From contig NZ_BJUW01000001.1 of NCBI RefSeq assembly GCF_007988825.1, positions 248,001-312,000 on the forward strand: DNA of 64,000 bases, read 5' to 3'. The stretch is from Microbacterium aerolatum. Its GTDB lineage: Bacteria; Actinomycetota; Actinomycetes; Actinomycetales; Microbacteriaceae. Below are positions 35,951-39,280 of this stretch, piece after piece (positions within the stretch are counted from its first letter, which is position 1; the number at the start of each line of letters is the position of its first letter). A program made the translations under genes and the position numbers. A model generated the notes under the pieces. It was not told where the DNA came from, ran no database searches, and saw nothing but the letters and a program-made list of their open reading frames with translations.

Positions 35951-37261
35951 GTGGAAATCCTGCTCTATGCCGTCGGCATCGTCTTCATGCTGATCGGCCT
36001 CGGTCTGTCGATCGGGCTGCACGAGATCGGACACCTCGTCCCGGCGAAGCTGTTCGGCGTGCGGGTGGGGCAGTACATGATCGGCTTCGGTCCGCGGGTC
36101 TGGTCCAAGCGCATCGGCGAGACCGAGTACGGCGTCAAGGCGCTGCCGGTCGGCGGGTTCATCTCGATGTCGGGGATGTATCCGGCATCCGACGGCAAGC
36201 CGGTGCGCGGTCTGTTCGCCTCTCTCGTGCAGGACGCCAGGTCGGCGAACGACGAGACGATCGCAGAGGGCTCCGAGGAGCGCGTGTTCTACCGGCTGCC
36301 GGTCTGGAAGCGGATCATCGTCATGCTCGGCGGTCCCGTGATGAACCTCATCCTCGCGATCGTGATCTTCACGGTGCTGGCGTCGGGGATCGGGCTTCAG
36401 CAGGGCACGACGACCATCGCGAGCGTCAACGAGTGCGTGCTCCCGGCCGGCACGACGCAGTCCGAATGCGAGCCCGGCGATCCGGCATCGCCCGCCGCCG
36501 AGGCCGGCGTGCTCCCCGGCGACGTGCTCGTCTCGATCGACGGGACGCCGCTGGACGACTTCGCAGAAGCGACCGCGATCGTGCAGGCGTCGCCAGGGCA
36601 GACTCTGGACATGGTCGTCGCCCGTGACGGCGAGAACCTGCATCTGTCGATCACGCCGATCACCGCGGAGCGGGCGCTGACGGATGCCGGCGGTCAACCG
36701 CGGCTGGATGCCGACGGCGAGCAGGTCGTCGCAGAGGTCGGCTACGTCGGCATGGGGGCTCAGATGGGCTTCGTGCCGCAACCGATCGGCACGGGCGCCA
36801 CCATGGCAGGGGAGAACGTCGCGCGCGTGGCGGAGCTGATCGTGCAGCTGCCCGTCAAGCTCTGGGACGTCGGATCGTCGCTGGTCACCGGCGCCGATCG
36901 CGACCCGGACGGGCCGCTCAGCGTGGTCGGCGTCGGACGGCTCGCCGGTGAGGTCGCGTCGACGGATGCTCCGATCCTGAACCGGTTCGTCGTGCTGCTG
37001 AGCCTGCTCGGATCGCTGAACATCGCGCTGTTCGTGTTCAACCTGATCCCGCTGCTGCCGCTGGACGGCGGTCACGTCCTGGTGGCGCTGTGGGACGGCA
37101 TCCGACGCGCGTGGGCGAAGCTGTTCCGCCGTCCGCCGCCGGCACCGGTGGACGCGACCAGGCTCGTGCCGCTGACTGTGGTCGTGGCGGTGCTTCTGAT
37201 CGCGATGGGGGCGCTGCTGATGATCGCCGACGTCGTGAACCCGGTGAACCTGTTCCAGTGA
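35951..37261 (+). CDS. RseP-type site-2 protease (M50 family)
   Basis: A 436-residue membrane zinc protease that cuts membrane-bound regulators such as anti-sigma factors; the mycobacterial counterpart is Rip1. The zinc motif H-E-I-G-H lies at residues 24-28 in the first helix, a PDZ domain lies at about 160-240, and the third zinc ligand is in N-L-I-P-L-L-P-L-D-G-G-H. The gene lies between dxr and ispG as in many actinobacteria. Its stop abuts the stop of the convergent TrpEG gene. Confidence 0.92.
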   Translation: MEILLYAVGIVFMLIGLGLSIGLHEIGHLVPAKLFGVRVGQYMIGFGPRVWSKRIGETEYGVKALPVGGFISMSGMYPASDGKPVRGLFASLVQDARSANDETIAEGSEERVFYRLPVWKRIIVMLGGPVMNLILAIVIFTVLASGIGLQQGTTTIASVNECVLPAGTTQSECEPGDPASPAAEAGVLPGDVLVSIDGTPLDDFAEATAIVQASPGQTLDMVVARDGENLHLSITPITAERALTDAGGQPRLDADGEQVVAEVGYVGMGAQMGFVPQPIGTGATMAGENVARVAELIVQLPVKLWDVGSSLVTGADRDPDGPLSVVGVGRLAGEVASTDAPILNRFVVLLSLLGSLNIALFVFNLIPLLPLDGGHVLVALWDGIRRAWAKLFRRPPPAPVDATRLVPLTVVVAVLLIAMGALLMIADVVNPVNLFQ

Positions 37262-39148
37262 TCAGCTGATGCGCAGGGCGTGCTCGATGAGGCGCTCGAG
37301 CGTGCGGATACCGTCGCGAGACAGGATCGACTCGAGGTGTCCCTGCACACTGGCGTAGCCGTCGCCGCGCAGGGCGTAGACGTCTCCGGTGGCAGGGTCG
37401 GCGGACACGCCGCTCGTCTCGGAGCCGGGGGAGACCTGTGCCGTGAACGTGTTGTAGAACCCGATCGACGCTTCCTCGCCGAACACCGGCACCGTCTTCT
37501 GCAGTCCCTGATGCGGTGCTGCGAGCGGCGCGAGGTCGAGGCCGAGCCGATCCGCCAGGATCTGGTGGCTCAGGCACACCGCCAGTAGGGGAGCGCCCTG
37601 GTCCAGGCGGCGGCCGACGAGCTCGCGCATGCGGGCGATGCGCGGCGAGCTAGCATCGCGCGGGTCTCCGGGCCCTGGGCCGGCGACGAGCAGCTCGGCC
37701 GCGTCGATCGCGGCATCCTGAACCTCGTGCCACGGCATGATCCTCGCATCGAGGCCGAGGTGGCGCAGCTGGTGCGCCAGCATCGTGGTGAACCGGTCCT
37801 CGGCGTCGACGACCAGAGCCGTGCGGCCGGCGAACGGACCGGTCGACCCGTCCTCCTGAGGGTTCAGCCAGAACTCGGCCAGGCGGGAATTGCGCGAGGC
37901 GAGAAGGGCGGAGACCTCCGGATCGTCGGCGAGGGGAGTGTCCGTCGAGGGCTCATCGGGGTCCGCCTTGACCGCGGCGGCGGTGTCGCGCGGGATCGCT
38001 CCGATCGCGCCGAGGACGCCGGCGGCCTTGCCGTGCGTCTCGCTGACCTCGCCGTACGGGTCGGAGTGGCGCACGAGCGTCGCGCCGACGGGCACGCGCA
38101 GCCGCCCGTCCTCGAGATACACGGTGCGGATGAGGATCGGTGCGTCGACGTCGTGTCCGCCCTCGCCGTTCGGGGTGAAGAGGGCGGCGACGCCGGAGTA
38201 GTACCCGCGCGGAGTCGTCTCGTGGCGGCGGATCACGGCGCAGGCGTTCTGCATCGGGGAGCCGGTGACGGTCGGGGCGAACATCGTCTCGCGCAGGATG
38301 TCGCGCGGGTCGAGGCGGCTGCGGCCGCGCAGCATGTACTCGGTGTGGGTGAGGCGCGACATCTGCTTGAGGTGGGGGCCGGTGATGCGCCCGCCGTCGG
38401 AGCAGACGGCGCTCATCATCTTGAGTTCCTCGTCGACGACCATGAACAGCTCCTCGGTCTCCTTCGTGGAGGAGAGGAAGTCGATCAGGGTCGCCTTCGT
38501 GGCGCCGCCAGCCGGGTGGCGGAAGGTGCCGGAGATCGGGTTCATGGTGACGATGCCGTCGCGGGCGACCACGTGGGCCTCGGGGCTGGCGCCGACCGCG
38601 ATGTGTCCCGGGGTGATGACCGCGAAGGTCCAGTAGGCACCGCGCTCGTGCGTGAGCAGCGCGCGGAACCAGGCGAGGGCGGTGCTGCGCTCCTCGGCGT
38701 CGACGGTGGCGGTGTAGTCGCGGCGGATCACGAAGTTGGCGCCCTCGCCACGACCGATCTCCTCGGCGATCACGCGGCTGACGACCTCGGCGTAGTCCTC
38801 ATCGCTGATGTCGAATCCGGCATCCTCCAGCGGCACGGGAGCGGCGGGCAGAGCGGCGAGCATGTCGTCGAGCGGGAAATCACGGTGCTCGTCGACGATC
38901 AGGCAGCGCAGCGGGGTACCGTCGTCGGTGGCCGCGAAGCCGCGTTCGCGCACCTGGCGATAGGGGACCATGGCGAACACCTCGCGCGGTGTTCCGTCGA
39001 TCGTGAGCGGGATGTCCGCGAGCAGGTCGACATCGCGGGTGGGGCCGGTGAGCAGTTCGACACTCTGTGCGCCGTCTCGTGCGATCAGGACGAAGGACGC
39101 GTCGGCATCCTCCACCAGCTCGGCGAGCAGGGCTGCGGTATCGGTCAT
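37262..39148 (-). CDS. fused anthranilate synthase (TrpE-TrpG, PhzE-like)
   Basis: A 628-residue fusion. Residues 1-400 are the chorismate-binding synthase with I-P-Y/V-P-Y-R-Q-V-R-E-R-G-F, I-G-R-G-E-G-A-N-F-V-I, and T-V-T-G-S-P-M-Q-N-A-C. Residues 440-628 are a glutamine amidotransferase with the catalytic cysteine in A-V-C-L-S-H-Q-I-L. The whole sequence resembles PhzE, which makes 2-amino-2-deoxyisochorismate for phenazines, but no other phz gene is near. A tryptophan attenuator upstream argues for anthranilate production or at least control by tryptophan. ATG 39148 follows AGGAG. Confidence 0.85.
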   Translation of the reverse strand: MTDTAALLAELVEDADASFVLIARDGAQSVELLTGPTRDVDLLADIPLTIDGTPREVFAMVPYRQVRERGFAATDDGTPLRCLIVDEHRDFPLDDMLAALPAAPVPLEDAGFDISDEDYAEVVSRVIAEEIGRGEGANFVIRRDYTATVDAEERSTALAWFRALLTHERGAYWTFAVITPGHIAVGASPEAHVVARDGIVTMNPISGTFRHPAGGATKATLIDFLSSTKETEELFMVVDEELKMMSAVCSDGGRITGPHLKQMSRLTHTEYMLRGRSRLDPRDILRETMFAPTVTGSPMQNACAVIRRHETTPRGYYSGVAALFTPNGEGGHDVDAPILIRTVYLEDGRLRVPVGATLVRHSDPYGEVSETHGKAAGVLGAIGAIPRDTAAAVKADPDEPSTDTPLADDPEVSALLASRNSRLAEFWLNPQEDGSTGPFAGRTALVVDAEDRFTTMLAHQLRHLGLDARIMPWHEVQDAAIDAAELLVAGPGPGDPRDASSPRIARMRELVGRRLDQGAPLLAVCLSHQILADRLGLDLAPLAAPHQGLQKTVPVFGEEASIGFYNTFTAQVSPGSETSGVSADPATGDVYALRGDGYASVQGHLESILSRDGIRTLERLIEHALRIS

Positions 39149-39179
39149 CGATGTCTCCTGTGCAGTGCTCCGGCTCGGG

Positions 39180-39209
39180 CAAACGAAAAGACCGCCCCGG
39201 AGGCGGTCT
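39180..39209 (-). terminator. attenuator terminator of the trp leader
   Basis: On the minus strand AGACCGCC (39209-39202) pairs with GGCGGTCT (39196-39189), followed by TTTTCGTTT. The left arm can instead pair with GGCGGT at 39236-39231, which would prevent termination. Confidence 0.85.
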
Positions 39210-39235
39210 GAATTCGTGAAATGCGAACGCACCGC

Positions 39236-39268
39236 CTAGAAGGCGGGCCACCAGGCGGTTGTGCGCAT
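39236..39268 (-). CDS. trpL: tryptophan leader peptide
   Basis: A 10-codon frame reading [10 protein letters not shown] with two adjacent Trp codons. It starts at ATG 39268-39266 and stops at TAG 39238-39236. Its codons 4-5 (ACCGCC) can pair with GGCGGT overlapping the stop, forming the classic 1:2 pairing. When Trp-tRNA is scarce, stalling on the Trp codons would free segment 2 to pair with segment 3 and allow transcription of the synthase. Confidence 0.85.
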
Positions 39269-39274
39269 GGGCCG

Positions 39275-39280
39275 AAACTA
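39275..39280 (-). promoter_or_regulatory. -10 box of a predicted leaderless mRNA (trp leader peptide)
   Basis: On the minus strand TAGTTT lies exactly 6 nt before the leader ATG 39268, so the leader peptide would start at the 5' end of the RNA. No clear -35 is visible. Confidence 0.5.

Follow-up and report, generated by a model that had tools for sequence, protein, structure and literature searches.

In the window, the whole 64,000-nucleotide stretch of Microbacterium aerolatum DNA analysed here, a fused synthase gene on the minus strand is preceded by a short leader ORF with tandem Trp codons and by a series of complementary segments ending in a T-rich run (Table 1). The synthase looks like PhzE by sequence, as an earlier note on this DNA had claimed: it joins a chorismate-binding domain to a class-I glutaminase domain (Pfam), and its closest solved relative is PhzE 3r74 (E 2.7e-157, aligned over residues 29-626). 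The protein stays below the cut-off of every NCBIfam anthranilate synthase model; the canonical TrpE model TIGR00564, for example, gives 98.9 bits, under a cut-off of 517.7. The gene is flanked by a divergent ispG (over cut-off) and a convergent RseP-like gene (123.7 bits against a cut-off of 147.55), and phz genes are not among its direct neighbours. Neither rseP nor ispG has a known tie to tryptophan. At 37259-37264 the RseP-like ORF (plus strand, end 37261) and the synthase ORF (minus strand, end 37262) meet stop to stop.

The ten-residue leader, its tandem Trp codons, the 2:3 pairing and the 3:4 pairing with its T-run, all described in the earlier note, are present in the sequence, and the hexanucleotides ACCGCC (39259-39254 and 39207-39202) and GGCGGT (39236-39231 and 39195-39190) do each occur twice. 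The further claim that the elements lie within 100 bases of the gene holds for their extent, as they cover 88 nt, but not for their position, with 120 nt from the leader ATG to the synthase ATG. A linker lies between segment 2 and segment 3 in minus-strand order, and the AGGAG of the synthase gene falls outside the alternative helices. A sigma-70 scan, which also demands a -35 box, gave no match at the putative -10 box (39275..39280). The pattern TANNNT, followed after 6-7 nt by a short ORF with TGGTGG, has a single occurrence in the whole window and 74 occurrences in 80 relatives (1.19 Mb, both strands), all of them at the leader position. The best RNA family for the region is Rfam RF00513 (Trp_leader), aligned over the whole model with E 0.0012 and 26.4 bits, below the gathering score of 41; no gathering score was reached anywhere in the window.

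Table 1 Features of the synthase gene and its leader region, in positions of the window
Feature	Position	Strand	Basis or remark
PhzE-like fused synthase, chorismate-binding and glutaminase domains, 628 aa	37262..39148	minus	PF00425 and PF00117
Putative -10 promoter box TAGTTT	39275..39280	minus	6 nt 5' of leader ATG
Leader ORF, 10 codons and stop, tandem Trp	39236..39268	minus	ATG 39268, stop end 39236
Tandem Trp codons (TGGTGG) of leader	39253-39248	minus	read from sequence
Outer-stem 5' arm AUGCGCAC, start-codon region	39261..39268	minus	permutation excess and minimum-energy fold
Outer-stem 3' arm GUUCGCAU	39221..39228	minus	permutation excess and minimum-energy fold
Segment 1 of the earlier note, ACCGCC	39254..39259	minus	minimum-energy partner of segment 2; unconserved
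Conserved segment 1, CCCGCC, directly 3' of Trp codons	39242..39247	minus	helix with segment 2 above permutation
Segment 2, GGCGGT, first base is last base of stop codon	39231..39236	minus	sequence
Segment 3, AGACCGCCU (= AGACCGCCT)	39201..39209	minus	antiterminator partner of segment 2 and terminator left arm
Segment 4 GGGCGGUCU including U-rich tail, intrinsic terminator	39181..39197	minus	folds and terminator scan
Segment 4 stem arm GGGCGGTCT	39197-39189	minus	T-rich tail after it, to 39181
Terminator stem	39209-39189	minus	T-rich tail beyond, ending 39181
Shine-Dalgarno-like AGGAG of synthase gene	39157..39161	minus	read from sequence

Predicted folding of the leader

The 88-nt leader is predicted to fold at -44.4 kcal/mol compared with -28.5 kcal/mol for shuffled sequences (z = -4.9; 0/200 shuffles as stable), and both the isolated terminator (z = -4.3; 0/200) and the isolated 2:3 pairing (z = -3.3; 1/200) fold beyond shuffles. 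A terminator scan found one terminator at the locus; 50 shuffled versions gave 0.0 on average. In the predicted folds the antiterminator 2:3 and the terminator 3:4 are mutually exclusive, and a ribosome at the stop codon would mask segment 2.

A ribosome footprint extends for about 12 nt counted from the first base of the A site, and the footprint folds assume this coverage. With the footprint on either Trp codon and segment 4 not yet made, segment 2 is free and 2:3 is predicted at -15.3 kcal/mol, while with the footprint on the stop codon segment 2 is hidden and only 3:4 is possible, at a predicted -19.6 kcal/mol. When no ribosome is present, the outer stem and 1:2 are predicted to fold first, at -24.8 kcal/mol, followed by 3:4. 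The outer stem of the window, AUGCGCAC with GUUCGCAU, has seven pairs and one mismatch and stacks under 1:2 in one fold of -24.7 kcal/mol. If the full RNA is allowed to refold around a ribosome on a Trp codon, 3:4 is predicted to win at -23.6 kcal/mol, so the antiterminator must be kinetically held, as in other attenuators.

Conservation of the leader and covariation of its helices

The closest named relatives are Microbacterium, with up to 84% identity, and of the 35 genus genomes, this one included, 34 have enough upstream sequence and every one of these carries a Trp-Trp leader; in the 35th (locus L007) a contig end cuts the locus and the second half of the leader is visible. The leader was also found in 78/78 assessable named loci of a set of 80, which leans to the leader-bearing kind because it holds the best 80 of 584 matches, and which has some genomes in common with the other sets; two loci, L099 and L105, have too little upstream sequence. 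These searches exclude a loss of the leader or its Trp codons in close relatives. A TANNNT motif lies 6-8 nt 5' of the start codon in 77 of the 78 loci (in L130 the start is at the edge of the scanned stretch), suggesting that the leader mRNA is probably leaderless. Leader-bearing named relatives include Agromyces, Jiangella, Kutzneria, Embleya, Blastococcus, Rhodococcus, Scrofimicrobium and one Actinomyces. Within the order but outside the genus, genome G049 has the leader and G048 lacks upstream sequence. At locus L040 (G055), a PhzE-like gene at 57% identity has no Trp leader in the 400 nt before the match, and that genome has no TrpE over cut-off.

More widely, 80 class loci were picked by hand, mostly by rank, from 113 places outside the genus. 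In 51 of them the start codon of a Trp-Trp leader follows a -10-like box at a distance of 5-8 nt, by a pattern somewhat looser than the one applied to the named loci. One further locus has a doubtful Trp ORF, and 28 have no leader, some of these in f45 and f35 lineages where no canonical TrpE turned up at E <= 1e-120, so the leader is not universal. All ten multi-copy genomes, for each of which two or three PhzE-like copies were fetched, have exactly one leader-bearing copy (G094, G143, G165, G195, G196, G206, G268, G293, G325 and G331; G197, whose two matches are pieces at contig ends, was left out of this count). Within family f45, a PhzE-like gene in lineages with no canonical TrpE at E <= 1e-120 is without a clear Trp-Trp leader at loci L207, L210, L213, L215, L217, L218, L223 and L224 (the Trp ORF of L218 being the doubtful one); the sister lineages L211, L212, L214, L216, L219 and L220 do have such a leader. 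Among 96 distinct leaders, 94 have a terminator stem of at least 6 pairs and 88 have at least 4 T within about 10 nt after it. An RNA-model search of this genome for a second leader gave E 1.7e-18 for the window site and 0.002 for the next best; by eye, five of the six other best matches looked like coding sequence and one was a stretch beside a tRNA. The stretches around trpCBA and trpD (L052, L054) gave no short ORF in which two Trp codons lie close together.

Each helix was scored by the longest stretch of pairing that its two regions allow, and the score was set against those obtained after partners were shuffled among leaders. Relatedness can inflate all such scores and is left in by the permutations. 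The inner 1:2 helix, between the stretch after the Trp codons and that after the stop codon, scored 5.24 versus 4.70 (sd 0.12) in 35 divergent leaders. The earlier note had assigned segment 1 to the ACCGCC before the Trp codons. In this genome that pre-Trp helix is indeed the minimum-energy 1:2, but as a general 1:2 helix it was rejected, scoring 4.46 versus 4.48 permuted in 96 leaders (in the 35 divergent leaders, 4.49 versus 4.26; sd 0.11, largest permutation 4.59). Judged by these scores, the segment 1 conserved across leaders is the stretch after the Trp codons, not the one before. The 3:4 helix scored 9.02 versus 7.25 (sd 0.20) in 31 of the 35 divergent leaders, and 2:3, at 5.53 versus 5.36 (sd 0.10) in the same 31, showed no excess over permutation, as it is nearly invariant. 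Both tests dropped L084, L113, L129 and L131, for which the terminator finder gave a doubtful stem. In the Kutzneria leader L128 both sides of the 2:3 pair are changed, GACGGCC with GGCCGTC.

An outer stem, between the first leader codons and the linker 3' of segment 2, scored 6.51 versus 5.26 (sd 0.22) in the 35 divergent leaders. In the class set it scored 6.59 versus 5.51 (sd 0.14; 0/500) in all 51 leaders and 6.28 versus 5.34 (sd 0.19; 0/500) in 27 divergent ones; the two sets share some genomes, so that this second test is not fully independent, and their search regions differ slightly. The outer-stem covariation spans several actinobacterial families, in 22/27 divergent class leaders a distance of 22-29 nt separates the last Trp codon from the 3' arm, and several leaders include the start codon itself in the pairing.

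Canonical and probable anthranilate synthase genes in the genus and class

A PhzE-like gene is present in all 35 genus genomes searched, and in none of them does a TrpE pass the family cut-off (best matches 159 to 292 bits), suggesting that the PhzE-like enzyme is likely the sole anthranilate synthase of the genus. In this genome trpA, trpB, trpC, trpD and hisI are over their cut-offs, and it is from these genes and the absent TrpE that we infer the role of the synthase gene in Trp synthesis and its likely product. No other anthranilate synthase was found here; the other chorismate enzymes found are an isochorismate synthase that passes its subfamily cut-off and a PabB-like protein that, at 323.3 bits, falls 5 short of the PabB cut-off, and there is one separate PabA/TrpG-type glutaminase. 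The gene order is hisF, hisI, a TIGR02234-like membrane protein gene (23.9 bits, cut-off 71.15), trpC, trpB and trpA, with no trpE between hisI and the TIGR02234-like gene (L052, 7150-8093). In genome G038 (L045), a canonical trpE (818.9 bits, PRK13571) occupies the place between hisI and a TIGR02234-like gene (58.6 bits). The simplest reading of these gene orders is that the canonical trpE was lost and the putatively attenuated fused enzyme left as the only one.

Among the 296 genomes of the class sample, 109 have a PhzE-like protein (E <= 1e-60) and 224 a TrpE match (E <= 1e-120), of which 218 are over the family cut-off. When the two lists were compared by eye, a canonical TrpE accompanied the PhzE-like protein in 67 of the 109, and 42 had the PhzE-like protein only (Microbacterium 8, f45 24, f35 9 and G181 1). 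Of the two roles that the earlier note had offered, main or second anthranilate synthase, the fused enzyme thus most likely has the first within the genus, as the only one, but this does not extend to the many genomes elsewhere that also have TrpE. In Microbacterium's own family, loci L145-L147 of genus g23 (G148, G170 and G336) carry a leader-bearing PhzE-like synthase in genomes that keep canonical TrpE, so that only the Microbacterium side seems to have lost TrpE.

A tree of 102 proteins (quick method, SH-aLRT, no bootstrap; L042 and L196 were dropped from the 104 rows for short alignment) groups the window's protein with leader-bearing Microbacterium, Agromyces and others. The leader label requires 4 changes on this tree against a shuffled mean of 28.1 (0/500 as low). 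One side of a branch with SH-aLRT 87 holds 19 of the 28 rows without a clear leader together with all five plasmid controls, and the window's protein lies on the other side; the remaining nine rows without a clear leader are eight from f45 and one, L222, on a very long branch. An isochorismatase (4/5) or PhzF and PhzA/B genes (2/5) lie beside the controls, which were classed as ADIC-type secondary-metabolism enzymes on that ground. The window's protein shares with PhzE (3r74) and its ADIC-type relatives an identical two-domain architecture, and differs from the controls in these neighbours and in its side of the tree. Residues Ser217, Ser368 and Thr369 are named as distinguishing PhzE from anthranilate synthase (PMC5906492). 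The pattern Ser-Ala-Thr occurs in the window's protein and all 118 loci examined (in overlapping sets) and also in 4/5 ADIC-type controls, and for this last reason the signature was dropped as a means of splitting the two enzymes.

Attenuation model and relation to known systems

Conservation, predicted folding and the Streptomyces literature support the tryptophan attenuation of a PhzE-like fused synthase that the earlier note had proposed, and the locus very probably encodes a leaderless, ribosome-mediated tryptophan attenuator that governs the one anthranilate synthase of a Microbacterium, a fusion of the TrpE+TrpG type. Transcription would start at or adjoining the leader AUG, and a ribosome would translate the ten codons. 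When charged Trp-tRNA is plentiful, the ribosome would reach the stop codon and cover segment 2, leaving segment 3 free for segment 4, and RNA polymerase would terminate before the synthase gene. When Trp-tRNA is scarce, a ribosome stalled on UGG-UGG would leave segment 2 free, 2:3 would form before segment 4 is made, and the synthase gene would be transcribed. Without a loaded ribosome, segment 2 would be taken up by the outer stem and 1:2, with termination as the default.

This model has to be weighed against the possibility that the synthase belongs to secondary metabolism, as an ADIC synthase of the phenazine type (PhzE), and that its leader is only loosely tied to tryptophan supply. The match to PhzE 3r74 and the sub-threshold anthranilate synthase models would fit such an enzyme, as would the close likeness of PhzE and anthranilate synthase active sites in the description given by PMC5958127, but the occurrence of the gene throughout the genus, its ispG and RseP-like rather than phz neighbours, the lack of a second anthranilate synthase among the genes found in the genome, its distance in the tree from all five ADIC-type controls and the conserved leader Trp codons make this very improbable. 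We likewise give little credence to leader translation acting through a downstream start site or Rho instead of an intrinsic terminator: the T-rich stretch follows the stem in the window and in most leaders, and the AGGAG of the gene lies clear of the alternative helices, even though in 8/96 leaders (L033, L042, L107, L127, L129, L131, L132 and L136) the chosen stem is followed by fewer than 4 T and other actinobacterial leader peptides are described as having no clear terminators (PMC8079986, PMC1262725).

The outer stem stacks under 1:2 in the single window fold, and there is an even chance that it does no more than extend a long 1:2 hairpin at its base, neither acting by itself nor closing the start codon; against this stand its excess over permutation in two partly overlapping sets, the confined position of its 3' arm and the pairing of the start codon in several leaders. 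A bolder proposal, which we regard as possible but rather doubtful, makes the start codon part of the attenuator: the first leader codons, in several species together with the start codon, would pair with RNA 3' of segment 2, shutting the 5' end after the pioneer ribosome or if none loads. Were this so, one ribosome would decide, an untranslated leader would default to termination, and in Microbacterium, which would have lost the canonical TrpE, tryptophan synthesis could be entered only through a step under this switch.

A gene whose name would follow phenazine logic thus most likely encodes the only anthranilate synthase in a large genus. Leader presence may be useful for separating primary- from secondary-metabolism copies, given the one leader-bearing copy in each multi-copy genome, and the leaders form a large, compact collection in which the interplay of leaderless translation with attenuation can be studied by comparison. 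In the literature searches, no paper was found on a tryptophan attenuation leader peptide in Microbacterium, nor one linking Streptomyces trpE to SCO2117. Korolev et al. (2015) reportedly treated tryptophan-dependent attenuation in Actinobacteria and may already list Microbacterium. Lin, Paradkar and Vining (1998) are said to have described the S. venezuelae trp attenuator and Ashenafi (2015) a fused anthranilate synthase, reportedly both for the same fused gene.

As described, the S. venezuelae trp attenuator likewise stands before an anthranilate synthase gene and is experimentally supported (PMC1262725, PMC4833913), a likeness that comes from descriptions, not sequence. Seliverstov (2005) predicted classical trp attenuators in Corynebacterium and Streptomyces and gives S. 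venezuelae as experimentally studied (PMC1262725). Sinorhizobium meliloti has, by its description, a 14-aa trpL whose RNA starts at the ATG and an attenuator before trpE(G) (PMC7298713), two features also proposed for the present locus, though the system is alphaproteobacterial. A published parallel is S. lividans TK24 trpL1 (MFAHSTRNWWWTAHPAAH), described as leaderless, with 18 residues and three Trp, before a monocistronic trpE (PMC8079986); the two systems share a leader ORF that is leaderless, in Microbacterium only probably so, tandem Trp, hairpins, a uridine-rich stretch and a monocistronic anthranilate synthase gene, and the Microbacterium leader differs in having two Trp and ten residues. 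A single residue separates the trpL1 peptide from several leaders of family f37 (e.g. L179, MFAHSTQNWWWTAHPAAH), which stand before a PhzE-like synthase, and this near-identity of leader peptides, rather than the gene sequence, suggests that the S. lividans trpE gene is probably PhzE-like. In f37 a canonical TrpE accompanies the PhzE-like protein in every one of the 27 genomes that have the latter, in contrast to Microbacterium. Since the switch type is already known from Streptomyces, the Microbacterium leader is an orderly new example and not a new principle, to which the comparisons made here add the likely sole-synthase status in the genus and a covarying stem at the start codon.
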